A DNA stretch of 64,000 bases, from positions 2,480,001 to 2,544,000 of the forward strand of contig OZ017754.1 of the NCBI GenBank assembly GCA_963969365.1, given 5' to 3'. The notes below the pieces were generated by a model. The model searched no databases. It had not been told where the DNA came from and saw only the letters and a list, made by a program, of their open reading frames with translations. The position numbers were made by a program, and so were the translations under genes. This stretch comes from Asterochloris sp. CNOR1. Its lineage: Eukaryota; Chlorophyta; Trebouxiophyceae; Trebouxiales; Trebouxiaceae. This document shows positions 1 through 63,600 of the stretch, one piece after another; within the stretch, counting starts at the first letter, position 1, and each line of letters starts with the position of its first letter.

Positions 1-51
1 AGCCGCTTTGGATTTAGCCAAAGGTGACCAAGCTTGCTGAGGAGGCCATGA

Positions 52-3000
52 CTAGCCGCTCGAAGACGTTGATGCACTTGCTGCGGCGCCGGCTGTAGCC
101 ACGATTGCAGTCGAGCTTGCAGACGATGAGGCACTGGCCTTCAGAAGGGTGGTGGCTGCTGGGACAAGCAGTGTCTGCCCTGCTGGCGGGAGGCCGAGGC
201 AGTTGATCAGTGTGCTGACGCCAGCTGAAGCGGAAGCTGTGGAGGCCACCTGGGTCACAGCTTGTGAAAACCCTGTTGCAAAGTTGGTCGCGGTGTAGAG
301 CTGCGCCCCAGCCGTGGCGTAGGCCACTGCAGCATGGCAAGTTGTTCGCCAGGGATGTGGCTGGCAAGCAACCACAGACGACGCTAACAGGCCATTGCGC
401 TGAGGCTACATATACTGGAGCAGAGCTGGGCATGCAGCTCTGGGAGGGACAGCTGCGCCCGCATACATGGAAGAGACCCTCATGCACTGGGGATGCATGC
501 TTGACGCCATCATTGAGCACGACGGGAGGCTGACAGGCCCTCTTGACACTGGATCATGGCAGGTCCAGCTCCATGCAAAGGAAGCAACCAAGGGCAAACT
601 CACGTCCAAAGGCGGTCTGGATTGGAGTGCAGCTGTTGGGTGGCAGATCTTTGGCAAGCTCCGTCAGGAAGCAGTATCCCAGCTGAGAGTACTTTGGGTC
701 CAGGCTGAAGATGGCAGCGATCAGGCTTGTTGCTGTGGAGGTGAACTGCAGGCGACCAAGGCATGCATTGCGGAGAGTGCTCGAGCTATCAGACTGTCAG
801 CTGATCATGCCCAGTGAAGCCTCTCTGGACTGCTGTCCAGATGGCAACAACACGACGTCCTCTTTCCACAGAGCACCGCATGTCACATGGCCTGGGCAGC
901 ACGGTGAAGGCAATCAGGCCACCAGAACATTTACCTGTGAGGAGAAGTTCCGGCCTGTGAGCAACACATCGACCAACCTGCTCACCTGAGGGCTTTTTGC
1001 TTCCAGCAAGGCTACCAGGATGTCTGCGTAGGCAGCGCCCAGGCAGCACAGGTTTGTGGGCCCGCCCGCGGCAGCCGCCACTTGGGTCAGTGCAGCGATG
1101 GTGTTGTTGGTGGCTTGCACCACACTAGCTGAGGCAGACGCAGAGGCTACTGATGTGCCAGCTCCTGATGAAGCATAGGCCTGCAGAGACCAGCCTGTGC
1201 TCGAGCGCCAAAGAGACGGGCAACATGATCTACAAGCATGTGGCATGGTGTGCATCAGCTGAGGCAAGTGCCGAGCGTTTGGCAGCAGGTGCAACGCTGC
1301 AAGCAAAGCACTGAGATCAGCCTGGTGAGTGCTGCAACATACTGTTGTGACGTTTGGGGTGCACATCGGGGGCGTCAACAGCCTCACCGAAGCGACGGCT
1401 GTGGCAGTGGTCTGTGCAAAGGTCGGTGCCACGCTGCAGAACCCTTGTGGGGCAGCGGTGAAGGCCTGGGCATAAGAGCTAGCCACCGCTGGTGTGAAGG
1501 TCTGCAAAAGGAAGCAGTCAGTACGATTTGTGAACCAGCAATAAGGAGACAGAAGGTCTAGCAAACACACACAGAGATGCATTTACAGAGCCCATCCATG
1601 CTGCAGGCATGCATTGGGGTCTTAACAGCTAGCTGACTGCAAGGTGGAACCTGCGAACAACAGTCTCACCTGGGTGACAAAGCATGTGGCTGCGGCTGTG
1701 GCCACGGCAGCGGCAGTGCACTGGCTGCCTGAGGCACTGGCCAAAGCAGTGGATGTGGCTGTGGCAGTGCAGGTGCCAGCGCCTTGCACCACAGTCGAAG
1801 TAGCATCAGCAGTTGCATTTGCTGCGCATACGGCAGGAGGGGGAATGAGGACCGGGACTGGCTTGAGCGGGGGCACGGAGATGGGCGCCGGCGCGGTCTT
1901 GTTGCCTGTGCCTGCAGGTGCAGTTGTGGCTTGAAAGGCCAGGCGGTGGCAATGCCTGTGCAGGCTTGGTGCTGGTGGGCTCGGCCGCAAGGCCTCCAGA
2001 GGCAGCCCTGGCTGGGTGCTGGCGCCTACAGATGCGGGTGTGCCATACAAGCAAGGCAACGGCTGGCTTAGAGTGGTGGAGTCAGTCGCCGATGCAGCCC
2101 AGGGATGGCGCTGCCATGAAGACTGACACTGCTGTACCGGACATCTGCTGAACTGACGTCACCAGGGGCATCACAAGGAGCATGCAGTCCCTGTTTCGGC
2201 CTTTTCTGCTTGGGCCAAGTCAACATCGGGGAGCAGCTGCTCACCTGATGTAGCGTTTGCTGCAGCGCTCGCGTTAGCACTACCAGTTCCGTCTGCAGGG
2301 TGAGCTCAATGGTTGGCATCAGGGAGTGCCACAAGCCCCTTGAGACAATCATGCAGTATGCGTCAGCAACAGGGGCTAGCCTCTGGGATCAGTGCTGCCA
2401 TTCATGGAACTGCAAATCAGGCAGCAGCACCACGTGACGGCCCCTCTAGGACCAGCGCTGCCATGCTTGCAGTGACAAGTCAGGCAGCAGTGCCCAGCAC
2501 CACAAAGTGGAGGTGGTCTGTGCATTGGCCTGTCCCCATGCTCAAGGCTCAGAGTAAAGAGGGCGCAGCTGCTCACTTGCTGTAGCGTTTGCTGCTGCGT
2601 TCGCGTTAGCGTTACCAGTACCGTCTGCAGGGTGGGAGCACAGGTCAGCATCAAGAAAGCCATGAGCATCTCAAGGCAATCATGCAGTATACGTGCGCAG
2701 CAGGAGGCTGCCCTCTTGGATCGGTCTGCATGAGACTACGAGTCAGCCAGCAGCACCAGACACCTGCCCCTCTAGGACCAGCGCTGCCATGCTTGCAGTG
2801 AGAAGTCAGGCAGCAGTGGCCGGCATCACGATGGGGGGGGGGGGGGGGGGTGTGAGCATTGGCCTGTCCCCATGCTCAAGGCTCAGTGAGAAGAGGACGC
2901 AGCTGCTCACTTGCTGTAGCGTTTGCTGCTGCGTTCGCATTAGCGTTACCAGTACTGTCTGCAGGGTGAAAGCACAGGTCAGCATCAAGAAAGCCACGAG

Positions 3001-5499
3001 CATCTCAAGGCAATAATGCAGTAGAGGTGAGCAGCAGGAGGCTGCCCCCTCACATCAGCGCTGCCTTATGTGGTACTACAAGTCTGCCAGCAGCACCAAG
3101 AAGCCGCCCCTCTGGGACCGTCATGCGTGCAGAGGCAAGTCAGGCAGCAGTGCATTGGGCACGTGTCCAGCATCACAAGGCGGGTGTGGTCTGCATTTTG
3201 GGACTTTCCCTATGCTCAGGGCTCAGCAAAGAAGAGGGGACAGCTGCTCACTTGATGCGGCAGCTGCGGTGGCGTTAGCGTTAGCGTTACCGGCACCATC
3301 TGCAGGGTCAAAGCACAGGTCAGCATCAGGGAGTGCCACGAGCTTCTCAAGGCAGTATGCAGTGAACGTGAACAGCAGGAGGGTGCCCTCTAGGACCAGT
3401 GCTGCCCTGCATGAGACTATGAGTCAACCAACAGCACCAGACACCTGCCCCTCTGGGACCAGCGCCGCCGTGCGTGCAGTGACAAGTCAGGCAGCAGTGC
3501 ACTGGGCACATGATCAGCATCAAAAGGCGGGTGCAGTCTGCTATCTGGATTGTCCCGATGCTCAAGGGTCAGTGTAAAGAGGGGAGATCTGCTCACTTGA
3601 TGCGGCGAGTGCGGCTGCGGTCGCATTAGCATTGCCAGTACCAGATGCAGCTGCAGAGTGAAAGCACCATGTCAGCATCAATGAAAGCCACAAGCATATC
3701 AAGGCAATCATGCAATATGCAAGAGCAGCAGGGGGCTGTCCTCTGGGATCAGCGATGCCTTGCATGCAACTAGAAGTCAGCCAGCAGCCCCCCGCGGCTA
3801 CCCCTGTGCCATTGGCGCCGCCATGCATGCGAAGACATGCCAGAAAGCAGACCACACTCAACGCTCAAGGCAAAGTCAAAAAGAGGGAGCAGCTGCTCAC
3901 CTGCTTTGGCAGCTGCAGCTGCGGTCGCATTACCATTACCGTCTGCAGCGTACATGCACAGGTCAGCAAGAGGGCAACGAACATGGAAAGACAAGTCAGC
4001 CTGCGGTGATCAGCAGCTGCCCCTTTGGGATCAGCGCTGCCATTGGTGCAATGCCCAGTCAGGCAGCAGTGCCCAGCATCACAAGGTGTACAAAGCCTGG
4101 TTTCTGGCCTTGCCCGATGCTCAAGGCTCAGTGAAGCGAGATACCAGCTGCTTACTTGATGCGGCAAGTGCGGCTGCAGTGGCGTTAGCACTACCACCTG
4201 CAGGGTGACAGCAAACGACAGCATCAGCTAAAGCTGCAAGTCTCTCAAGGCATTTATGCAGTATGCATGAGCGACATGGGCCTGCTTTCTGGGATCAGTG
4301 CTGCCCCTGCATACATCTACAGCTCAGCTGGCAGCAGCAAGCAGCTGCCCCTCTGGGACCAACGCCACCATGCGTGCAGTGACAACTCAGGCACAGCAGC
4401 GCGCGACAGCAAAGCCTAGCTGGTGACTGTCAGCCACGCCCACAGGCATGCGGAAGTCACTTTACCACAACTTGAGACACTGAGGCCAAGCAGTGCCCGA
4501 CACCTGCCACCCATTTGTGCTTGCCACAGAGGATGCTTGCGGCTGACATGGCAACTTGGCTCGATGCTAACAGCTGAATGGCCAAAAGCCAGCTGTAAGA
4601 TTTGGTCCAGATCTCCAAAAATAATAGATGGCGGCAACATGGTGCAGTGACACACAACAGCTTGGTGCAAACTGCATCAGCCACCAGGGAGGGGACCTGC
4701 CACCACATGCCTGGAGGATTTTTATGAGAGTGCAAGTCGCTCACCACTCTGAAGCAGGAAGCGCCTTGAAGAGTCGGCTGCAGCACAGGATAGCGCATTT
4801 GTAAGGCCCATGCGGCGTCTGTGCACACACCACATGGTTTCTGATGCCGGTGCAACAAACAGCAATACACACAGGCTTTATCCAGTGATGGGGCGAATCA
4901 TGAAGGTCAGACATGTACAAACACATGGCACGGCAGGGTCTGCCTTGAATTAACAGAACACCAGCTGCTGCGCCCAGCTGGGCCTGCAGGATTCTGCGCG
5001 AAAAGAATGCACTAGTGTACACATGTGCAATGTGCTTTGCATTTTAAGTGTTGCTGGGAATAGCAGCAGGTAAGGCCTAGGGCAATCTGGGAGGGTGCTG
5101 GCAGCTGATCACATGAGCATCAGAGAGAGATTTAGCTCGGTGCAGCCGAACTTACTTGCGGGCTTGAGCGAGAACCGCTCCTGAGAGCTGGCTGCAGGGC
5201 AGAGCAGCAAATTGTGAGGCTCATGCAATCAACTTATAGTAGGAGAAAGATGATGTAACGAGGCTGGTCAGTGGATGAAAGCATCAAGCTGCTGTTGGCA
5301 CGGCATTGGCACTGGGGTTCCGGCCAGGCCAGGCCAGATATTTGGCATGTGTTCAATATCTCCATCAGATTTCTTCCATCACACAGGGGGAAGACTCTGC
5401 AAAGGCGGCCACAGCAGGAAGGACGCCAGGCTCACCTGTGGCGGTGTGCAGGGGAGCTGCCAGCAGGCAGAGGCCAAGGAGGATGCTGAGCCTATTCAT
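52..5499 (-). CDS. Secreted Asn/Ala-rich cysteine-containing protein, copy A (15 exons)
   Basis: Not a family I recognise. Exons in transcript order: 5436-5499, 5156-5191, 4745-4777, 4156-4197, 3901-3942, 3597-3650, 3252-3299, 2911-2958, 2577-2624, 2245-2292, 1670-1911, 1388-1501, 986-1180, 604-745, 52-326. Phases agree throughout and give 476 codons plus stop. Exon 1 is a signal peptide (MNRLSILLGLCLLAAPLHTAT), so the product should enter the secretory pathway. Exons 4-10 are mini-exons encoding about 16-residue Asn/Ala/Gly units with N-A-T and often N-G-T or N-S-T sequons. The rest is an Ala/Ser/Thr-rich region with ten cysteines, including GTCT, TCF, GFC and NLCCLG, all shared with the gene at 49774-54264. 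This suggests a glycosylated wall or extracellular-matrix protein, which is inference. The start was chosen as the ATG opening the signal peptide, with the phase-1 junction after it conserved in all three paralogues. Confidence 0.8.
2220..4420 (-). repeat. ~330-bp tandem repeat array carrying seven mini-exons (copy A)
   Basis: Seven full units and a partial eighth (about 4260-4400) repeat at spacings of about 332, 334, 341, 345, 304 and 255 bp. Each unit holds one exon of 42, 48 or 54 nt bounded by CTGCAG and a GTGAGC or GTAAGC donor on the minus strand, plus a related intron body with recurring words such as CAAGGCAATCATGCAGTATG and GACCAGCGCTGCCATGC. Every exon is phase 1-1, so units can be gained or lost without shifting the frame. 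Lengths differ by multiples of six nucleotides. Confidence 0.85.
2833..2850. repeat. Poly-G tract, 18 G (poly-C in the sense of the intron)
   Basis: An 18-base G run lies in an intron of the mini-exon array. The matching tract in the other copy (10969-10982) has 14 G and slightly different edges, which accounts for most of the one-base change in offset between the two copies. Confidence 0.9.
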
Positions 5500-7164: not shown

Positions 7165-8137
7165 ACACCAGCTGCAATGCTTGAGCTTTGCATGTGAGGG
7201 ACCCCTGGAGGCTTTCTGCTGGCAACATGAGATGAAGCGGTGGCAGCTGTGCTATCTGACCTGCTTGCACTTCGCAAAGCACTTGTGTGCACACTTGACT
7301 CCTGACAACAGGATAGAGCTGCTTGCAAGGGAAGGTCTATTTTTCTTGACTCAGCGATGCTCCTGGCCACTAAATTTGTTGCACAATTGCTTGTGCACAG
7401 TGCGGGCATGACACGCCCACCCACCTGGACATTTCTGTGTCGCCTTGATATGCATTTTAACAGGGCTGCACAAGCTTTGCAAGTTGCACAACTCACCTGT
7501 TCGGCAGTGGCTGCTGCGCATGTTACCCCTCCTGGCCCATCCTGCCCCTCAAGCATCAGGACCAGTCCAGCAGACCAGATCTCACCTGGGTCTGGCGGTG
7601 AAGCCTTCTGCACCTTAGAACCTGTATATTGACAAGGCCACCTGCAGGCTGCAGGCCTGGCTCACCGAATGCATGAATCTCTTCTGTGCAGATCTGCACC
7701 AAAAGAAGTAGCCAGCTGTTTGTGACAGGACTTGGCACCAAGTCCAGAAGCAAGTATGATTAAACGGCAACTGAGAACCTTCCCATCTCACTTATGGTCA
7801 GGTTATCTTGATATTCAGCACTGGACAAATGAGGTCCATCTTTGCATACCTTGTGACCTCAAAGAAACAGAGGAAGGCCAACCTGGATTCAGCCAAGGTG
7901 GCTGAGCTTGCTGAGGGGGCCATGACCGGCCGCTTGATGACAGTGCAGAGGTGGACAGCTGTTTGTTGAAATGATGACTTGGGTACCAGGACTAACAGCA
8001 CAGGGCAATCGGGGTATTGTTACTTTCATACATATGTGGTCAGATAATCTTGAGTGTAGCATGACAAGTAGGGGATCTGTACGCGTCAACCATTTGCATG
8101 TCTTGTGACCTCAGACAAAAGCAAAGAGACAGAGGAA

Positions 8138-11100
8138 AGCCGCTTTGATATTAGCCAAAGGTGTCAGAGCTTGCTGAGGAGGCCATGACTAGCCGCTCGA
8201 AGACGTTGATGCACTTGCTGCGGCGCCGGCTGTAGCCACGGTTGCAGTTGAGCTTGCAGAAGATGAGGCACTGGCCTTCAGAAGGGTGGTGGCTGCTGGG
8301 ACAAGCAGTGTCTGCCCTGCTGGCGGGAGGCCGAGGCAGTTGATCAGTGTGCTGACGCCAGCTGAAGCGGAAGCTGTGGAGGCCACCTGGGTCACAGCTT
8401 GTGAAAACCCTGTTGCAAAGTTGGTCGCGGTGTAGAGCTGCGCCCCAGCCGTGGCGTAGGCCACTGCAGCATGGCAAGTTGTTCGCCAGGGATGTGGCTG
8501 GCAAGCAACCACAGACGACGCTAACAGGCCATTGCGCTGAGGCTACATATACTGGAGCAGAGCTGGGCATGCAGCTCTGGGAGGGACAGCTGCGCCCGCA
8601 TACATGGAAGAGACCCTCATGCACTGGGGATGCATGCTTGACGCCATCATTGAGCACGACGGGAGGCTGACAGGCCCTCTTGACACTGGATCATGGCAGG
8701 TCCAGCTCCATGCAAAGGAAGCAACCAAGGGCAAACTCACGTCCAAAGGCGGTCTGGATTGGAGTGCAGCTGTTGGGTGGCAGATCTTTGGCAAGCTCCG
8801 TCAGGAAGCAGTATCCCAGCTGAGAGTACTTTGGGTCCAGGCTGAAGATGGCAGCGATCAGGCTTGTTGCTGTGGAGGTGAACTGCAGGCGACCAAGGCA
8901 TGCATTGCGGAGAGTGCTCGAGCTATCAGACTGTCAGCTGATCATGCCCAGTGAAGCCTCTCTGGACTGCTGTCCAGATGGCAACAACACGACGTCCTCT
9001 TTCCACAGAGCACCGCATGTCACATGGCCTGGGCAGCACGGTGAAGGCAATCAGGCCACCAGAACATTTACCTGTGAGGAGAAGTTCCGGCCTGTGAGCA
9101 ACACATCGACCAACCTGCTCACCTGAGGGCTTTTTGCTTCCAGCAAGGCTACCAGGATGTCTGCGTAGGCAGCGCCCAGGCAGCACAGGTTTGTGGGCCC
9201 GCCCGCGGCAGCCGCCACTTGGGTCAGTGCAGCGATGGTGTTGTTGGTGGCTTGCACCACACTAGCTGAGGCAGACGCAGAGGCTACTGATGTGCCAGCT
9301 CCTGATGAAGCATAGGCCTGCAGAGACCAGCCTGTGCTCGAGCGCCAAAGAGACGGGCAACATGATCTACAAGCATGTGGCATGGTGTGCATCAGCTGAG
9401 GCAAGTGCCGAGCGTTTGGCAGCAGGTGCAACGCTGCAAGCAAAGCACTGAGATCAGCCTGGTGAGTGCTGCAACATACTGTTGTGACGTTTGGGGTGCA
9501 CATCGGGGGCGTCAACAGCCTCACCGAAGCGACGGCTGTGGCAGTGGTCTGTGCAAAGGTCGGTGCCACGCTGCAGAACCCTTGTGGGGCAGCGGTGAAG
9601 GCCTGGGCATAAGAGCTAGCCACCGCTGGTGTGAAGGTCTGCAAAAGGAAGCAGTCAGTACGATTTGTGAACCAGCAATAAGGAGACAGAAGGTCTAGCA
9701 AACACACACAGAGATGCATTTACAGAGCCCATCCATGCTGCAGGCATGCATTGGGGTCTTAACAGCTAGCTGACTGCAAGGTGGAACCTGCGAACAACAG
9801 TCTCACCTGGGTGACAAAGCATGTGGCTGCGGCTGTGGCCACGGCAGCGGCAGTGCACTGGCTGCCTGAGGCACTGGCCAAAGCAAAGGATGTGGCTGTG
9901 GCAGTGCAGGTGCCAGCGCCTTGCACCACAGTCGAAGTAGCATCAGCAGTTGCATTTGCTGCGCATACGGCAGGAGGGGGAATGAGGACCGGGACTGGCT
10001 TGAGCGGGGGCACGGAGATGGGCGCCGGCGCGGTCTTGTTGCCTGTGCCTGCAGGTGCAGTTGTGGCTTGAAAGGCCAGGCGGTGGCAATGCCTGTGCAG
10101 GCTTGGTGCTGGTGGGCTCGGCCGCAAGGCCTCCAGAGGCAGCCCTGGCTGGGTGCTGGCGCCTACAGATGCGGGTGTGCCATACAAGCAAGGCAACGGC
10201 TGGCTTAGAGTGGTGGAGTCAGTCGCCGATGCAGCCCAGGGATGGCGCTGCCATGAAGACTGACACTGCTGTACCGGACATCTGCTGAACTGACGTCACC
10301 AGGGGCATCACAAGGAGCATGCAGTCCCTGTTTCGGCCTTTTCTGCTTGGGCCAAGTCAACATCGGGGAGCAGCTGCTCACCTGATGTAGCGTTTGCTGC
10401 AGCGCTCGCGTTAGCACTACCAGTTCCGTCTGCAGGGTGAGCTCAATGGTTGGCATCAGGGAGTGCCACAAGCCCCTTGAGACAATCATGCAGTATGCGT
10501 CAGCAACAGGGGCTAGCCTCTGGGATCAGTGCTGCCATTCATGGAACTGCAAATCAGGCAGCAGCACCACGTGACGGCCCCTCTAGGACCAGCGCTGCCA
10601 TGCTTGCAGTGACAAGTCAGGCAGCAGTGCCCAGCACCACAAAGTGGAGGTGGTCTGTGCATTGGCCTGTCCCCATGCTCAAGGCTCAGAGTAAAGAGGG
10701 CGCAGCTGCTCACTTGCTGTAGCGTTTGCTGCTGCGTTCGCGTTAGCGTTACCAGTACCGTCTGCAGGGTGGGAGCACAGGTCAGCATCAAGAAAGCCAT
10801 GAGCATCTCAAGGCAATCATGCAGTATACGTGCGCAGCAGGAGGCTGCCCTCTTGGATCGGTCTGCATGAGACTACGAGTCAGCCAGCAGCACCAGACAC
10901 CTGCCCCTCTAGGACCAGCGCTGCCATGCTTGCAGTGAGAAGTCAGGCAGCAGTGGCCGGCATCACGAGGGGGGGGGGGGGGCTGGTGTGAGCATTGGCC
11001 TGTCCCCATGCTCAAGGCTCAGTGAGAAGAGGACGCAGCTGCTCACTTGCTGTAGCGTTTGCTGCTGCGTTCGCATTAGCGTTACCAGTACCGTCTGCAG

Positions 11101-49773: not shown

Positions 49774-52700
49774 ATGAAGAGAGAGCGGGCACTCCTCCTG
49801 GCGGCGTGCCTCCTGGCAATTACATTCCAGCCTGCTGTAGCAGGTAGGCCTCTGCTGCAATGTGCACCAGTGTGCTGCTGTCTCGGGCAGCCTGGGGCAG
49901 CAGCGGCGTGCTATGCTTTGGGCTCAACGGTGCCTGGTGGCTGTAGTGCACATGGCAGCATTGTACTGTATAGCCTGGGGGACCTCAGGGGAGCCTACCT
50001 GGCTGCAGTGTCTGCCATGCAGTATTTGTTGAGCACAGCAAGGCACCTGCCCGTGGTGCCAGCTCAGGGGGCAAGAAGCTGCGCAGTGCAGCGCTGCATG
50101 TGCATGCGCTGTGTATGCACACAGCTGCCCTGCTGCATGGCAGCCCATTGGGCGCCTGCTGACATTGGCTTGCCAGGCTGACTTGTGCAGTCTCCTGTTT
50201 GGTGGCCTTACATAGACAGCGGCAAGCGCATGAGATGTGCCTGCCTGCCTGACACCCCTTTGCTGTCTTCTGCCCTGCAGAGAGCGCTGCCCAGAGGCAC
50301 CTGTTGCAAGAGTGTAAGGCTGCTAGAGCTGGCATTTGACTGCCTTGCCCTATCCATCTCACAAATATGGCGCCTGAGCCCTAACCACAAGGACAAAGCT
50401 TTTTAGAAAATCACATCTGCACAGCTCCTGCCTTGATGTGCTTTGTTGTCCTTGCTGCTGCCTTGATTGCTTACAGCAATTGCCCCCCTGCAGTTGCTTG
50501 ATTCAGCTGCGTCTTGTCTGTTATGCTTACTTAGCATCCTTGCACCTGCTGCCCTGCAGCACCCCCTTCCCCTGAAGTCAGTGCGGGCAATGGGTGGGTA
50601 TGTTAGACAGCTGCTGTTCTGAATGTGCAGCACAAGCAAGCTCTCATGCCTGCCTGTCTTGCATGCTACTCCCCCCATGCTGCCTTGTTCCCCCCGAGCT
50701 CTGCTACCACTCCTGAGAGGTATCCTTGCAAGTGCAGTTGCCAGCATGTGAAGGCATCTGATGTGCACTGCCACTGCGACGCACAGCGGTGACCCTGAGA
50801 GCTCACACTGTCGCTGATTGTGACTTGCAGGGGAGCTGGCGGGGCTGCCGAAGGAGCTGGCTCATCCGCTAATGGAGGTCCCAGAGCAGCAAACGGCAAT
50901 AACATCAACACAGCAGGCACTCCAGAAGCCCCCACCGGTGAGCCTTGCCCCCCTTCCTCTTGTTACTGCCAATGGTCTCACCTTCTTAAACATGAAGGGC
51001 CCATCTTAGGGATGACCAGCTTAGCTTACTGACTGTGCAGCCGAACCAATTGTGACCACGTCAGTCCCCTCAGCCATGGATGCCCCATTGACGACAACAG
51101 CATCCCCCACCACCACAGAGGAGCCCTCTACGACAACTGCCGTCCCCACAACAACTCCGGCGCCGGTGACCACAACTGCAGGCCCCACCACCACTGGTGT
51201 GCTATCTTCTACCAATTGGTGTCCTTTGCTACTGTGCTAACTTCTTGATCGCACCCAAGTCGGCTACTCAGCCGTTCTGCAGTCACATAGCTGCGTTCCA
51301 GGCAAAGTCATGGTAGCTGCGCTGCAAATCAAGCTACTCTCCTGGCGCAGCTGTGCCTGACTCAGCTGTCAGGCTGTTTTAGATGTGCCTGCTGTTGCCT
51401 CACCCTACAGGAGCTCCTGGCTCGACCACCACGGCCCCCACCACCACTGCTGCCCCTGGCCAGACCACTGCCGCACCGGCCAGCACTCCTGCGCCAATCC
51501 TTCCTGTCTCCCCCCAGTGTCAAGGCAACGCTCAGGCACAGGTATGTGTTTGGTGGCAGCAGCAATTTGGTGAACGCTTGCCATATCGATTGCAATACAT
51601 AGCGCTGGGCTATTGCTCAGGTTCAAGTAAGCACTTGGTAGCAGCAGCTGCTTGGTGATTGCTTGCCATCGCAACTGCACAAGTGCAGGTGCATGGGACT
51701 TGGGACTTGGAACACAGCACAGCAGTAGCCAGGCTTGGTGCCAGCGCAACACCTCTCGTGAGCCGTGCTTTGAGCAGCAGCTGGCTGCATCAGCTGCTTG
51801 CATGGAGGCCTCAGCAGACTACATCAGCAGACGGCCAGCAAGCAAGCCTAAGCGTGCAGGCCCCTAGGCCTGTGTACATCAGCAGACAGCCTAAATTGCA
51901 AGGCAGGTGGTTTAATGCAGCATGGCCCAAAGTTACTTTTTTGCCCTAGAAACTCATGACCTTCTACCTGCAGGCCGTTGCCACCGGCGCGGGCACCTGC
52001 ACCGTCACAGCAACAGCGACGGCAATTGCATCTTCCACCGGCAACACGTGCTCAGCTCAGGTGAGCCTCTCTGTTGTCCCCCCACCACCATACACTGACA
52101 GCTTCCTGGCGCTGCAGCTGAGAAGCATAAGCAGGACTGATCTGCTGGCTGCATCCAAGCAAGTCACGCTGCAATTGCACAGCCCTCGCTGAGGAAACCG
52201 GCATCCAGTGTCCGACCTGTACTGCCTGCGTCTTGTGCCTGCGACCTTCACTTCCTTGTCGGTCTGCAGGCCAGTGCTACTGCCACCGCCACCTGCTTCA
52301 GCCAGCCCAACTTCAGCCGGAGCACTGCAACAGCAGTGGCGCAGTCCTTTGCTCAGGCCGCATCCACTGCCCAGGGGGGCTTCTGTGCAGTGGCCCCAAT
52401 CTTTGCACAATCTGTGGCAACTGCCATTGCAGCGGTGGGTTCAGTCTCCATTTATTGGGGCACACCCTCTGCTCTGTATGCTCAGCCGAGCCAGTCACAG
52501 AGTCATTGCCTCTGCTCCCCACTCATGCATTCCAAATTCATGCTCACTCTGCCACCCAGCCCAGGCTGTGCTGCCTTCAACGTCATCAGCAGCTTGTAGC
52601 AGATCACTGCCATGTCTAAGCAGTGACTGACATTTCTCTGCTGTGCTGTGGCGGGCCACCAACCTTGCAACTCTGCTTCCAGTTGCATCTCTATTTGTGG

Positions 52701-54264
52701 GTGCTCCCTCCCTTGAAACCATGCTGTGCTGCTGCAGGCTCTGCCCGCCGCTGGCAGTGTGGCCGCTCAGGCCACCGCCCAAACTACCACCCAGGCAACA
52801 GCCAATGCCCTGCAAGTACTGCAGGAGCTGGTGGCCTTGCCAGGCGTCAACCTGTGCTGCCTGGGCACCAGCTTTGCCAACCTGCTGCAGCAGCTGCAGC
52901 AGGCAGGGGGCAACCCTACCAGGGTATGTCAGGGTGGACCTGCTGCCTGTGATGGAATTGTGCAGGTGCCAGATTGAGAGAGAGCTTGCAAATGTGGATG
53001 CTGCTTTGCTGGAACACTGCCTCTGTTTCAGCAGCTGCAGAAGTTCTGTAGCAATGGCGCACTTTGCTCAGTCTAGATGTGCTCCGCAGCTGCAGCAGCC
53101 TGGTGACCTCACAGATGCACATCTTCTGCATGCATGCTGTGTGGCTCAGTTGGGCTGGCAAGTATACCTCTGGTTCAACCTGAACGGGAATCACTGCCAA
53201 CTGCTCCGCTGCTGCTCGTGTTGTGCTGCACACAGGTAACAGTCCATGCTGCACGGATCAGGTGCACCAGCAACAGGACCAGCACCCTCCGTTGAAACTC
53301 ATGCACTTACACACATTCTGCATCATGCCTGCAGTTCCAGGCAACTGCTTCGGCCCTGACATCAGCCATCTTCAGCCTGAACCCCAAGTTCTCCCAGCTG
53401 GCAGTCTGCTTTGTCACCCGGCTGGCCGCGCTCGACTTTGGCTGCAGCATCCTGACCACCGTGTTCGGAGGTCAGCCAGCTGTTCAGCAAGAAGGCCTGC
53501 CCTGCATCTCCTGCATGCAAGGAATCAGCCTTCGCTCTGCCTGTGTACTCCAGCTGCCACTGGAGGTCCTCCTTGTGTGCCTGCCAGCCTGCTTTGTGGC
53601 CAGCTCCTGGTCACTCATGTCAGTGATGCACAGGCACCCCCTGCAGCAGGAGAGCCCCGACGCTCCTGCTGCAGCAGTGGCCTGTGCTGTGTACTGCGGT
53701 CTGCAGCGGCCCTCCCTATAGTCAAAACCAGCGTGAACAGCACAGCCATTATGTCACCGACCCTGTAATGTAATTTGCTGCCTGAAGTGGCCCATGCAGG
53801 CCAGACCAGCCAGCTTGCATCGCAGCACTTTCCAGCATTGCTGCTTTACTAGGTTCTGGCCTCGTAGTGCCTCAGACCAGCCTGACAGCAATGTCATGTT
53901 GGCGCACTGACTCTTCATTGGGATCTGCTGCCTGCAGTGGCCTTTTCTCTGGCCCAGACCAGCCTGAACAGCGCCAGTAACTTCAGCACAGTCTTCTCCA
54001 CTGCCATCTCTTCCCTGGCAAGCAGCAACCCCACAGGCCTGTCCACCCTGCTGCGCTGCCTCAACATCCCCAGCGTGACTGTGACTGTCCCACAGGCTAC
54101 AACTGCACTAGCTCAGGTGAGCCATGACCACTGATGTTGTTCCAAAATGGCAGCCAGAGCCCACACCGCACCTCACCTACGACATGTAGAGGTGCGCTGC
54201 ACTGCTGAAAATTCACTGTATTCTGCAGGCCTCTGCATCTGCTACGGCCACAGCCAGCGGTTGA
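49774..54264 (+). CDS. Secreted Thr/Pro-rich cysteine-containing protein, diverged third paralogue (10 exons)
   Basis: Exons: 49774-49843, 50836-50937, 51041-51196, 51411-51541, 51974-52060, 52270-52434, 52738-52923, 53335-53470, 53938-54116, 54229-54264, giving 415 codons plus stop. The protein starts with a hydrophobic signal peptide (MKRERALLLAACLLAITFQ), then a Gly/Ala/Asn segment, then a mucin-like stretch of TTT, PTTT and TTTAP runs (exons 3-4), then the Ala/Ser/Thr-rich C-terminal region. The same ten cysteines as in the genes at 52-5499 and 8189-13616 are present (GAGTCT, TCF, GFC, NLCCLG, VCF). Four C-terminal junctions share position and phase with those genes. One intron falls before the TCF motif instead of after it, and the last intron is absent from the paralogues. 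The exon 2 acceptor is uncertain: the stronger-looking site five bases upstream leads to a stop in the next exon, so I used the downstream AG. Confidence 0.78.
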
Positions 54265-57600: not shown

Positions 57601-60600
57601 CTGCCTGTGCAGCAAGCTCTACCTGGGGCCACGGCTGGCTGTGCAGGGCTTGCATATTAACACCTCAAGCTTGGCATCATGGCCATGAATGACTGAGCAG
57701 CAATGCCTGAAACTTGCGGCCCCACAGAACATGCTGGTGCAAGCTGGCGAGTGCTGACCTGGCAGGTTCTCAGTGGCAGGGGCCTCTCACCTGGCGGCCA
57801 GGTCTGTGCACACCATGACAGGCTGCTCCCCCTCGCCGCTGTCCCCTGCTGCAAACTGGGAGATGGCCTCTTTGCGCCCATCCAGTGGCACATCCCCATG
57901 GTAGCAGCAAGTGGGCAGATCAGCTTCCTGCAGGTGGATCATGGAGCCAGTCAACACACTTTTGAGAAGTAGGGACTGATTGCCGGCGCATTTTGCTCAT
58001 GGTAGTGGCAGATGGGCAGCCCAATCCCCTGCAGGGCAGGCACACAGCGGGATGAAGCACAAGCCCCATACTGCTTACACCCAGGTGCAGCATATGGGCG
58101 TCGCCCTGCTGCAGTGGCACAGGGTGGTCTTGGCGGCAGCATCAGGAGGTTGACCAGCCTGGAGTGCGTGTCATTGTACGCCGCATCCTTCTGTCAGACG
58201 GCGTGCCTCAGATGAGGACCGCCCCTCCTAAGTGTAGTTTGGTGTCACACATATGACTGTGTTTGCGCATGCACGCAGGCTCGGCACTGCAAACATTGTG
58301 TAACACACCTGTACAGGTCATGTGCAGTGCAGGCCTCGACACCTTTATGAGATGCTAACTTGGCAGGTCTGGAAGCTCTACGCATTGTGAAGCGCAGCCA
58401 ATTGGCTTTCCATCCAAGTTGCAAGTTGAAAAGGAAAGTCCAGGGCTGAGCCGCGCTGCATGCATACTTGCCTGCAGATACATCTCGGCGGCACGACAGC
58501 TGTCCAGGGTGTTGCAGAAGACCATGGTGCGCTGCCCACGGCGCTGCTGGGGGCGCAGTATCTGCAGGGCAGGGTCTGAGGGGGTTTATGGGGGGTTGAT
58601 TGTCAGCCCCATGGCTCTGGCCAACAAGACTGACCGCCTGGCTGACAGCCGAGCCGGGATAAAAGACGCAAAAGGCAATTGTGGTGGCTGGCACAGGTGG
58701 GCTGCTGTGCGAAGTTCAAGCTTGGTCGGCTGCCACCCACTGCTGCTGAAATGATGACTGTATTGCTGATACCAAAGTTAGCACAAAAGCAGCAGTCCTG
58801 CACTGAGGCAAGTGCATCCCTGCAGGTCACACGTAGAGGCAACAAAGCAGCCTATTGGCTCTGCAGGTGGCAGCTGCAGTGTGTCTGCAGCGCTGCAAAA
58901 GCAGTGCTCTTGCTTCTGCACTACAGGCCAGACCTGCCAGATGTACCTTTTAGCACCTGTATCAGTGTCCTGCTGACAGCCGAGAACAAGCAGCTCGTTT
59001 GGTCTTTGTGACGGTGCAAGCAGAGGTGAACATGCCTAAGAGCGCCCACGAAAGGTTCTGGACGCACCTGGACGAGCGTGGCCAGCTTGTCCTCTGTCCC
59101 TTTGAGCGTGACAAAGCTGTGCTTGGCCCCTGCCACGCCCTTGTGCAGGCTGCTGGTCTCTGCGCTGATCATGGCAGGGAAGCGCTCCCTGACAAGCCGT
59201 TTCACGTCCTGCAGCAGCTGAAAGACTTTCGTGTTGTTTGCGGTGAACATGGCAGGGGAGCACTCTCTTGGGAAGCTACTCCACACCCTGCAACAGGTAG
59301 AGTCAAGCACTGAAGCCGCGTCTAGGGCAGGGAGATCCTCCTGATGCACTGCTTCACATCCTGTACAGACAATGAGTTGGAGCTTGCCTGGCAGGCTGTT
59401 GAGCTCAGGGTCAAATTCGACTGCCCTTGATGAGCAAAGGCCCTACGTTCTGCAACCTCAGCTAAAAGCTGCTTACAATACTGCTCTTGCCCAAGCAACA
59501 TTGGTCAGCAGCCAACCTCAATTGCCTATCGCTGGGATTGGGGACATGGCAGGCTAAAGTCTGGCAGGCTGACGCAAGGCCTCAATCGCAAGTGTGAGCC
59601 CACCTTCGTAAGTGTCGCAGCCACCAGGACGACCTTTGCTGGCTCTGCCTTGCTGCGCAAGGGGCCTAACAGCTCCTGTACCTGGTCGCCAAAGTCCCTG
59701 TGACAGGAGCATGGGGTCAAACGTTGACATCACTTATGCAAAAACTCGGCCATCTTCCTTCGTGAAAACCCTTTAGGCTAGCAATGCCAGAGCTTTGAAG
59801 CCAGAGCTTCTGGCGCAAGAGGCACAGGACGCTCTGTACCTGACTGCCAGAGTCCCTGCAGGCAGAGAAGAGGGGTGCAGACAGGACTGAAGCGGGCTGG
59901 GGTGCACCTTGGCTGCAAGTCAAAGTAAAAGCAGTGAGCCTGCACATGCGGCCAATGCCTGATTGACAGAGGCCCTGCAGGCAGAGCACAGCAGCACTGC
60001 GTCATGTTCATCATCCTGAGTTGAGCCCATCTCAAAATCGTATTCAGATCACTTTTGCTGAGCAAGTAGTGGTTGTGGAAACACGCCCCATCCATGTTGC
60101 AAGGCACCTGTTTGTTGATTTGCTGATCTCTGGGCTCAGGACTTGCAAAATCATGCAGGGACGGACTACATGGCAGGCAGGGCGGACGAAGCTCTGCATC
60201 AACATGCATGACGGCAGTCACAGCTGAGGTTGGGCAATGCTGCCAGCCCCAAGTGGCTGCTGAATGGGTGAGCAATGCCCGTCACACAGCCACCTGCAAC
60301 TAAGGGCCATAAAAAAGCTCAGTGCTCCATCAGGCAGCCTCCTGCTCACACAATGAGGATCCCTTTGTACTCAAGGCCTTTTCTCTCAGCAGAGACACCC
60401 CCCACTACTCCAGCAGCGACCAGACTCAAAGCCGCTGCCCCAGCCCTAGTTCAAGACCACACGCCTGACACTGTGCACATCATGGTTGCGCTCGACACCC
60501 TGCAATACTCCAGCAGCCAACCAGACTCAAAGCCACTGCCCCAGCCCTAGTACAAGACCACACGCCTGACACTGTGCACAACATGGTTGGGTTTCAACCT

Positions 60601-63600
60601 TATCAGTCAGATCACAGCTGCCCAGCATGATGTGAGCCTCCACACCACCTGCCTCTTGACCTGTGGACATTATGTCCAGTCTTGTGGCAGCCCTTTCAGT
60701 ATCTGTCACTGCAGGGAGAAGGGCATACACTGCCCACCAATTTGTCCAGCATGGTGCCTGCATCATCCAGTGCGTGTGCCCAGCATGGTGGCAGCCTCTC
60801 CATCACCTGCCACTGCACGATTTGACATCCAGTCACTGCCCACCTGTCCAGCATGGTGTCGGCCTCGTCCAGCACCAGCCACTGCACGTCCCCGTAGAAC
60901 AGGTTGCCCTTCTCCGCGTGCTGCAGCACCTTCTGGGGCGTGGCCACCAGGATGTCCAGAGGGGCCGCCAGGCAAGCTGCCTGCTGCGCCAGGGTGCCGG
61001 CTGCAGGCAGACACAAGCACAGTTGGAGTGTAATGTCATGAGGGGCGCTGCCAGCAGGTCGGCAGCGCCAACCAAAGCGGGCAAGAACATCTGGACAGAG
61101 CAATGTCACGAGGTGTGCCGCAGTTGCCTTCAGCAGGCTGCGGCTGGCTGACAGATGCCAGAGGGGCTGCCAGCGAGGCCACCTGCTAGATGATGAGAGC
61201 ATCAAAAGAAGGCAAACAGCGCCAACTGCAGTCCACACGGGAGATTGCACCTTGTTTGTGTAGCACATTTGTGCCAAACTCGAAGTCATTTGCAAAACTT
61301 TGTTGAACAGCAGCCTCTTTGCAGGAGCTAGAACGAAGATGCCTCCAAGTAACTGCTGCCTGGACGCAGTGCTGGACCTGGGCATTTTCGGCCAGAAGAG
61401 CCAAGCGTTATGTGGTGCAAAGAAGCTATGTGTCACAAGTCTGCCAGTCCCACCTCCATTCACACAGGCTGACCGGAACTTGGCAAAATGAGACAGCGAC
61501 TTGGCAACCTGCAGGATCTGGTCCGTCAGCTCTCTGGTGGGCCCCAGCACCAGCACTCGCGGACGCCTGGGCTTGCCTGCTGAGACGCCTGACAGCTCTT
61601 GAGACTTCAAGAGGTGAACCTGAACACATTGAAGGAGGCGTCAAGCAGTCAGCAATTAGAGAGAAGTGCTGCTCTTCATGTACAGGATGTCGGGCAGGCA
61701 GACCTTGCGGTTGCCTTCCTAGCGGGATGCACTTTGCTCATCACTGGAGGCAAGATGGCATCAGGCCAAGCTCGGGCAGCTGCAAGGACAAAGATTTGCC
61801 CCAGACGGCTTGCAGTTGTCGCTTGGCCCCAATACTACCTCCGCGTGGTGCATCTGATGTTCCATCGGGAGAAACTCCAACACTTGGTGCGGCCATGGCA
61901 GGGCCCCACACAAAGTGCTTACCAAAGGCAGCAGGTAGGCCAGCGTCTTGCCTGAGCCTGTGTGAGAGGCTATGAGGACATCCTGCTTGCTCAGAATGGC
62001 AGGGATTGCTTTGGCCTGCATACAAATTTATTGTCAGCTACACAACAAAGCTCATCAATTTCATGATACAAGGATGCACACATGGCCCATGGAGTCTCAG
62101 CCAGTGAGGGGTGGTGCATTGCACATGCTGGCTTGGCTGGTATCAGGCTGTGTGTCATGTAACACATGTGAGATTGGCTGCACCTGGACTTCTGTGGGCT
62201 CCTCCAAGTTCTGCTCTGACAAAGCATGCAGCAGCTGCTCTGTGAGGCCTAGAGACGCAAAGGCTGCTGAGCGAATGGCTGCTTGCTCAGATGGCGCATC
62301 TTGCAGCGCCATGGCAGCAGCGGCAGGCACCTGCAATGCTCTCCTGCAGCTGATGTGCGTCCTGTTGCACGTCTTGAGGTCGCCAGAGACATGCTGCAGG
62401 AGACGGCATGAGCCATATGAGTGGGTATGCAGCCAGTATCTCAGTCTCGGCAGGATCAACAGGACCGGAGTGGATGATGAAAGCCGGAGCTGCATCATGT
62501 TTTGAGGGCGCCAGATCACCAACTCATGCAACCTAAGTGGGACTGTGCGACAGCTCTGCGCCTCAAGCTTGCGAGTGACTGCTTCAAGGGGAGGCTCTCA
62601 AGCCTCCATTCTTAGGTTTGCAGTGAGCACAGGAGCTCAAATAGATGTCTCCAGATGGGAGGGTTCACCCGTCAGGTCTGAACACACCTGTCAGATGACC
62701 AGCACTGTGCCACAAGGCAAAGCTGGCTGGGGCCATGGAAGGCATACTGCATGCAGCAGCAGTAGCGTGCCGGGACTGTATCTTGTGCTCCGCATGCCTC
62801 TGCTGCTTTTCTGAGCCGCCCCATGTCACAGCATACACCAGCTGTGCCACAGTATGTGTGAGACATCTTTTGCAGCACTCAGAAGGACCCTCGAAATTAG
62901 TGGTACTGCAAGAGGAGGCCGTCGCCTATCATGATCCCCCAACAGCAGCTCAAGACCCTTTAGCTTGTGGGCTGCACAAGGTTGTTCTGCACAAGAAATC
63001 CTTCTCCATCAACTGCCCCAGCTGAGTTTCTCAGGTGTTGATCTCTGCGGACTGACATCAAATGTGAGACAACTGCCTTTTGCAAGCTTCTGTGCACAGG
63101 TGTATTGCAGTTATCATGGAGTAACACAGGCAGATGGCGTTGGGTTTTCCCAATTGCTGCACTAGAGGTGTTTATGGTGCACACAGGGAGCACATGTGCC
63201 CTGCTCAGCAGACATCCATAGCATGAGACTACTCAGCACTGGAGGCTGGGGGTGTTGCATGAAATGTTTGTGTAGCTATGGTTATTGTACATCAGCAAAT
63301 AAAGTCACTTTCCAGTCATTTGCCTTTCTTGCTATCAAGGTGGACCTCTGTGGCTTGCTGGTCCGGCGCTATACCTGTAGATGAGGCACCCCGCCTTTGT
63401 CTGCGTATCAATCATCAGGTGTTAGTCTCAATCGGCACTTGAACAAAAGCAAAATGCAACATACAAGCTCAAGCACAGCTATTACCTCAAAGCTTCCTCC
63501 TCTTCTGCCTCTGCCTTGTCCAGGAGCACAAATTTGTCCTCCTCTGCATCTCGATCCTCTGCTGCAAACAGGAGATGGTGTTTGCAATTGGTGTGAGCTC

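Follow-up and report, generated by a model that had tools for sequence, protein, structure and literature searches.

A tandem array of sequon-bearing, phase-symmetric mini-exons fills a variable spacer slot in two sister genes of a probable green alga

The window analysed here (the whole stretch of 64,000 nucleotides; GC content 57.3% overall and 53-61% across 2-kb steps) contains two tandem genes, A and B, in which seven consecutive mini-exons of symmetric phase each encode an N-A-T sequon. This gene architecture is real, coherent, and uncommon, combining a symmetric mini-exon array with a sequon in every unit, at a slot that is filled differently in sister genes. We consider it probable that the array forms the N-glycosylated spacer of a secreted extracellular protein and that it is spliced constitutively, with all seven exons included in order. 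On this proposal, transcripts of A and B would encode a protein that opens with a signal peptide and the short RRFLLQS segment and continues through a flexible spacer into a conserved, Cys-containing domain of approximately 300 residues. The spacer would go back to a single symmetric (phase 1-1) mini-exon that was duplicated in tandem, together with its intron, a long time ago. Its proline-free Gly/Ala/Asn/Thr sequence has 11 sequons over 110 residues; these would receive N-glycans in the ER, and occupied sites would make the spacer an extended stalk. The same slot in the sister genes is filled by Pro/Ser/Thr-rich sequence, a type that usually carries O-glycans.

Gene A runs on the minus strand from position 5499 to 52 of the window, and its 15 exons join at canonical splice sites into one stop-free frame of 476 residues. 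Gene B is a tandem copy with 15 matching exons. The features of both genes are as follows.

5436-5499, minus strand: gene A exon 1, signal-peptide-like as judged by eye, MNRLSILLGLCLLAAPLHTAT, phase 1 at its end
5156-5191, minus strand: gene A exon 2, 36 nt, phase 1-1
4745-4777, minus strand: gene A exon 3, 33 nt, phase 1-1, with the RRFLLQS motif; paralogs have similar motifs
4156-4197, minus strand: gene A mini-exon 4, 42 nt, GGSANATAAALAAS
3901-3942, minus strand: gene A mini-exon 5, 42 nt, NGNGNATAAAAAKA
3597-3650, minus strand: gene A mini-exon 6, 54 nt, AASGTGNANATAAALAAS
3252-3299, minus strand: gene A mini-exon 7, 48 nt, NGAGNANANATAAAAS
2911-2958, minus strand: gene A mini-exon 8, 48 nt, NSTGNANANAAANATA, with NST in A and NGT in B
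2577-2624, minus strand: gene A mini-exon 9, 48 nt, NGTGNANANAAANATA
2245-2292, minus strand: gene A mini-exon 10, 48 nt, NGTGSANASAAANATS
1670-1911, minus strand: gene A exon 11, GTGNKT start, then a Pro-rich hinge and the first Cys block of the conserved domain
1388-1501, minus strand: gene A exon 12, conserved domain
986-1180, minus strand: gene A exon 13, conserved domain, NLCCLG
604-745, minus strand: gene A exon 14, conserved domain
52-326, minus strand: gene A exon 15, end of the conserved domain and stop codon
8189-13616, minus strand: gene B, tandem copy, 15 exons matching gene A
12333-12292, 12078-12037, 11786-11733, 11435-11388, 11094-11047, 10761-10714, and 10429-10382, minus strand: the seven mini-exons of gene B

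Exon 1 of gene A, which has equivalents in the first exons of the paralogs B, C, D, and E, encodes a hydrophobic leader that reads by eye as a predicted secretion signal. Also by eye, the GTGNKT start of exon 11 resembles the head of a unit. Close to gene B, a short repeat with 81% identity is found at 7860-7941 and 8122-8204, and its second copy overlaps the gene B stop codon (8189); this may be what is left of the 3' end of a further copy. A 101-bp tandem repeat is present in two copies (91% matches) at 60394-60589 of the window, adjoining a minus-strand open stretch (60696-61640) that reads by eye like a DEAD-box helicase.

A preliminary description of this DNA had reported seven exons of 42-54 nt, all of phase 1-1, in each of the two tandem genes, and we recover the same seven at 4197-2245 in A and at 12333-10382 in B, placed between the N-terminal motif exon and the conserved domain. 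The shared phase of exons 4-10 is largely a single inherited fact, since a duplicated exon keeps its phase. The acceptor is CTGCAG in all seven gene A mini-exons, and the donor is GTGAGC in six and GTAAGC in one. Each of the seven carries one N-A-T, in A and B alike, and the three additional sequons with an Asn codon split across the exon junction are present as described, with exon 8 adding N-S-T and exons 9 and 10 adding N-G-T. The earlier estimate of about ten sequons is slightly low: exon 10 also encodes an N-A-S that was absent from that list, bringing the count to 11 within the 110-residue array and 14 across the whole protein. The units are indeed arranged in tandem, but their spacing, put at about 330 bp, is not uniform and measures 255, 292, 351, 341, 334, and 332 bp from start to start. 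Within the array, the sole difference between A and B is a Ser to Gly change in exon 8, which keeps the sequon.

The family comprises five genes (A-E) and a telomere-truncated copy. Searches of the genome itself (56.4 Mb, 21 contigs) with C-terminal proteins as queries, at E-value cutoffs of up to 0.001 or 0.01 and with counts that are lower bounds, find relatives only within approximately 100 kb of contig C9, namely A, B, C, D, and E. The remaining members are located as follows.

49774-54264 of the window, plus strand: gene C, diverged paralog with 12 exons and 439 residues, TTT-AP-type spacer, same C-terminal domain
C9:2564959-2569353: gene D, PPPTQP spacer with one large Pro-rich exon
C9:2579262-2573684 (downward): gene E, WSPSP/TTAP spacer
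C8:3105823-3108280: telomere-truncated paralog (L005), with telomere repeats starting at C8:3107843

The first exon is signal-peptide-like in every family gene, and each also has a short Arg-rich segment with LLQ or LQQ (variants RRFLLQS, RHLLQE, RRALQQQS, and RRGLLQS), and the variable slot lies between this LLQ-type motif and the conserved domain. It contains N-A-T mini-exons in A, B, and the telomeric copy, and other low-complexity sequence in C, D, and E. In gene E, exons 2-8 (57, 111, 63, 90, 150, 39, and 36 nt) are all of phase 1-1; the first of them carries the LLQ motif, and the run includes a (WSPSP)n exon. With such a run at the same place, a frame-neutral spacer zone exists in at least two lineages of the family. 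The slot phases of gene C are 1-2, 2-1, and 1-1. In gene D, the Pro/Thr-rich exon 3 (C9:2565952-2566502) changes frame internally, which points to a pseudogene, a sequencing error, or a missed intron. Sequons number 14 in A, 14 in B, 2 in C, and 0 in the modelled part of E; gene D has none in exons 1-2 or in its C-terminal part, and its exon 3 has 0 or 1, depending on which of two Pro/Thr-rich frames is read. The sequon-rich lineage of the family is thus A/B only; with so few in the paralogs, sequons are not a requirement of the family as a whole.

The conserved domain anchors the gene models. Over the C-terminal region, A shares 48% identity with C and also 48% with D, and exon junctions within the domain agree in phase among the three genes, with extra introns in C and D; paralog identity and shared junction phases together fix the strand and splicing of this part. 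A Pfam scan of A, C, and the C-terminal part of D, with E-values up to 1 allowed, matched no family in A or C and gave a chance-level match for D (E 0.27), with no pherophorin or other wall-glycoprotein domain among these three. NCBIfam gave three chance matches over the 3 members (best E 0.17). Against PDB sequences, gene A alone produced four weak matches, the best to a galactan synthase (E 0.053), and a three-sequence profile produced none. All the matches listed are at chance level, and a known domain for the C-terminal region was rejected. Outside this genome, no relatives were confirmed among 52 viral-contig and 33 genome-contig pattern matches, in collections of viral and bacterial or archaeal sequence, so that this result is little informative.

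To gauge how unusual the array is, a pattern of acceptor, N-A-T, and donor was counted. It matches 14 times in the window, against 0.02 expected from 100 shuffles, a figure that expresses rarity and not independent discovery because the pattern was derived from these exons. Genome-wide, there are 33 matches: 14 in A and B, 1 in the telomeric copy (whose second mini-exon exceeds the length allowed by the pattern), and 18 scattered singles outside the family. The reversed control pattern has no match in the genome. A second array elsewhere in the genome was not found by this search, which misses arrays with other splice hexamers or other sequons.

Four evolutionary lines suggest that the mini-exon array encodes protein, with a modest signal for codon positions. 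All nine units have lengths divisible by six (42, 42, 54, 48, 48, 48, and 48 nt, plus 54 and 66 nt in the telomeric copy), and the seven introns (213, 250, 297, 293, 286, 284, and 184 nt) show no frame constraint. Across the 36 unit pairs, there are 0.19, 0.17, and 0.355 differences per codon at positions 1, 2, and 3 in an alignment whose scoring favoured equal residues. A frame-blind alignment of the 36 pairs gives 115, 117, and 178 differences (178/410 at third positions); among the 46 gaps placed in this way, 10 have lengths that are not divisible by three, which speaks against coding. In four disjoint, hand-chosen unit pairs, there are 9, 8, and 18 differences (18/35 at third positions, P = 0.02), with one of the four lacking any third-position excess (3, 3, 3), and when four disjoint pairs were drawn at random 200 times, third positions made up 0.44 of the differences on average and 0.29 at the lowest. 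The N-A-T is kept in 9/9 units in five nucleotide spellings, and its position within exons 8-10 differs from that in exons 4-7. Stronger nucleotide conservation of mini-exons than of introns was not found (50-96% versus 63-81% identity). Among the best-kept intron parts are the opening 45 nt, donor included, and the acceptor end, where a branch-point-like TGCTGAC occurs in five of the seven introns. Intron conservation is not confined to splice signals, because a mid-intron block, CACTGCTGCCTG, is present in six of the seven (five of the six gene A array introns, within 4155-2293 of the window, and the intron of the telomeric copy); this block is kept as well as the acceptor end or better.

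The 63-81% identity between introns of different units indicates that the unit duplications are old. By contrast, A and B are nearly identical over approximately 4.4 kb (31-4454 versus about 12590-8168 of the window), with 11 substitutions and one gap column in a tract that extends from intron 3 to just past the stop codon. In 250-column steps, identity is 94.8% at 4607-4359 and 74-88% in the six steps from 4844 up to 6312. This sharp change suggests gene conversion between the tandem copies, which appears to have spared exons 1-3. The preliminary description had supposed that such an array would let the spacer grow or shrink; growth or shrinkage at present is not supported, since A and B are near-identical with seven units each and the introns between units have diverged, and a recent expansion was rejected on the same facts. 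A decayed eighth unit in intron 3 was also considered and rejected: BLAST shows similarity in its 3' part (4256-4396), but no exon is seen there by eye. The telomeric copy has kept exons 1-5 (exon 3 has 35 nt, versus 33 in gene A), and both of its mini-exons retain phase 1-1 and N-A-T. It is interrupted in the intron after the second mini-exon by TTTAGGG repeats, degenerate and then regular, that begin directly after its CACTGCTGCCTG block, as if the chromosome had broken inside the gene and been repaired by telomere addition.

How the array should be read depends on what the sequons are and on whether the exons are used. The sequons could be a by-product of an Asn/Thr-rich (X-Ala)n repeat that serves as a flexible or silk-like linker, with glycosylation absent or incidental. 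Small residues do alternate along the array, with Ala, Gly, or Ser at 55/55 even positions and Asn, Ala, or Thr at 47/55 odd ones, and paralog E, as far as modelled, has no sequons, and C has few. Shuffles that hold the alternating-residue classes within each exon already yield 6-7 sequons on average. However, the 11 observed exceed both this mean (6.7, P = 0.006) and that of 10,000 full shuffles (4.1, P = 0.0004), although these P values overstate independence because the units descend from one another. Retention of N-A-T in all nine units despite its shifting place within the exon, and of the exon 8 sequon through the Ser to Gly difference between A and B, likewise argues against a mere by-product, which appears unlikely to us.

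Somewhat less likely again is a device resembling micro-exon genes, in which regulated or stochastic skipping would generate isoforms that vary in spacer length and glycan number. The earlier claim that skipping carries no frame cost is borne out, as all 128 inclusion patterns of the seven mini-exons preserve the frame without introducing a stop, and the resulting proteins have 3 to 14 sequons. Five of the seven have A as the last base before the donor, where G is usual, and U1 pairing should be weaker as a result. Symmetric phase is itself no evidence for skipping, since only symmetric exons can be duplicated along with an intron without breaking the frame, and any duplicated exon is expected to show it. 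The junction codons, moreover, match the in-order neighbours in 8/8 cases (Asn arises from A followed by AC or AT, and Gly or Ala from G followed by GT, CT, or GC; P = 0.018 by shuffling), although perhaps only three junction types are independent because the units share descent. Skipping exon 4 or 6 singly would change the junction Asn to Asp, and skipping exon 5 or 10 would change another junction residue, whereas skipping exon 7, 8, or 9 leaves the Asn unchanged; with three of seven skips neutral in this respect, the fit favours in-order inclusion weakly. The donors (GTGAGC or GTAAGC) and the CTGCAG acceptor are also kept in 7/7, which speaks against skipping. Schistosome micro-exon genes (MEGs) are described as generating such isoforms (PMC4350168, PMC4015677). 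Finally, the 42-54 nt segments might be unused altogether, with exon 3 joined directly to exon 11, a junction that is likewise in frame and stop-free. Unit lengths divisible by six in 9/9 cases, the third-position excess, one peptide written in five spellings, and conserved donor and acceptor ends make this very improbable. Our preferred reading remains an N-glycosylated spacer that is probably built from all seven exons.

Parallels exist in other systems. In tropoelastin and the titin PEVK region, repeated small symmetric exons encode low-complexity, extensible spacers, as here; a sequon in each exon is not known from those arrays. Hydroxyproline-rich glycoproteins of plants and green algae are secreted and carry a low-complexity, glycosylation-prone spacer beside a folded domain. 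Paralogs C, D, and E, with their Pro/Ser/Thr-rich spacers, are like them in this respect, whereas the A/B array spacer is without proline. In schistosome MEGs, most exons are very small and symmetrical and serve alternative splicing (PMC4350168, PMC4015677); these exons are mostly multiples of three (PMC4350168, PMC4015677, PMC10526429), account for up to 75% of the coding region (PMC4015677), and belong to genes of the platyhelminth lineage (PMC4350168). A and B resemble MEGs in having tiny symmetric exons in succession, separated by introns that are longer, and MEG products are secreted, as the A and B proteins may be (PMC4350168, PMC4015677, PMC10526429). Unlike in MEGs, the mini-exons make up 330 of 1431 nt, or 23% of the coding sequence and not most of it, the array is tandem-duplicated and followed by a long conserved C-terminal domain, and the host is probably a green alga, with TTTAGGG at the chromosome end. 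There is a sequon in each unit here, and the word glycosylation is absent from the main text of one MEG paper (PMC10526429). We do not class the array with MEGs because of the 23% small-exon share and the probably different lineage. Among the titles and abstract openings listed on micro-exon genes, exon arrays, glycosylation, wall proteins, and photobiont genomes, this array is not described.

A bolder reading, which we regard as quite improbable, is that the family exchanges the glycosylation chemistry of its phase-1 slot by exon turnover (N-glycan in A/B, O-glycan-type in C, D, and E), with the N-terminal motif and the Cys-containing domain on either side fixed; in A/B, exon inclusion would add one to three N-glycans at a time and choose between Asn and Asp at some junctions. 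With one to three predicted N-glycan sites contributed by every small exon, the genes are a clean natural case in which transcripts could reveal both spacer length and site number. Across the sister genes, one slot holds differing low-complexity sequence next to a flanking domain that is kept. If the glycosylation proves true, N-glycan and Pro-rich spacers would substitute for each other in an algal extracellular protein.
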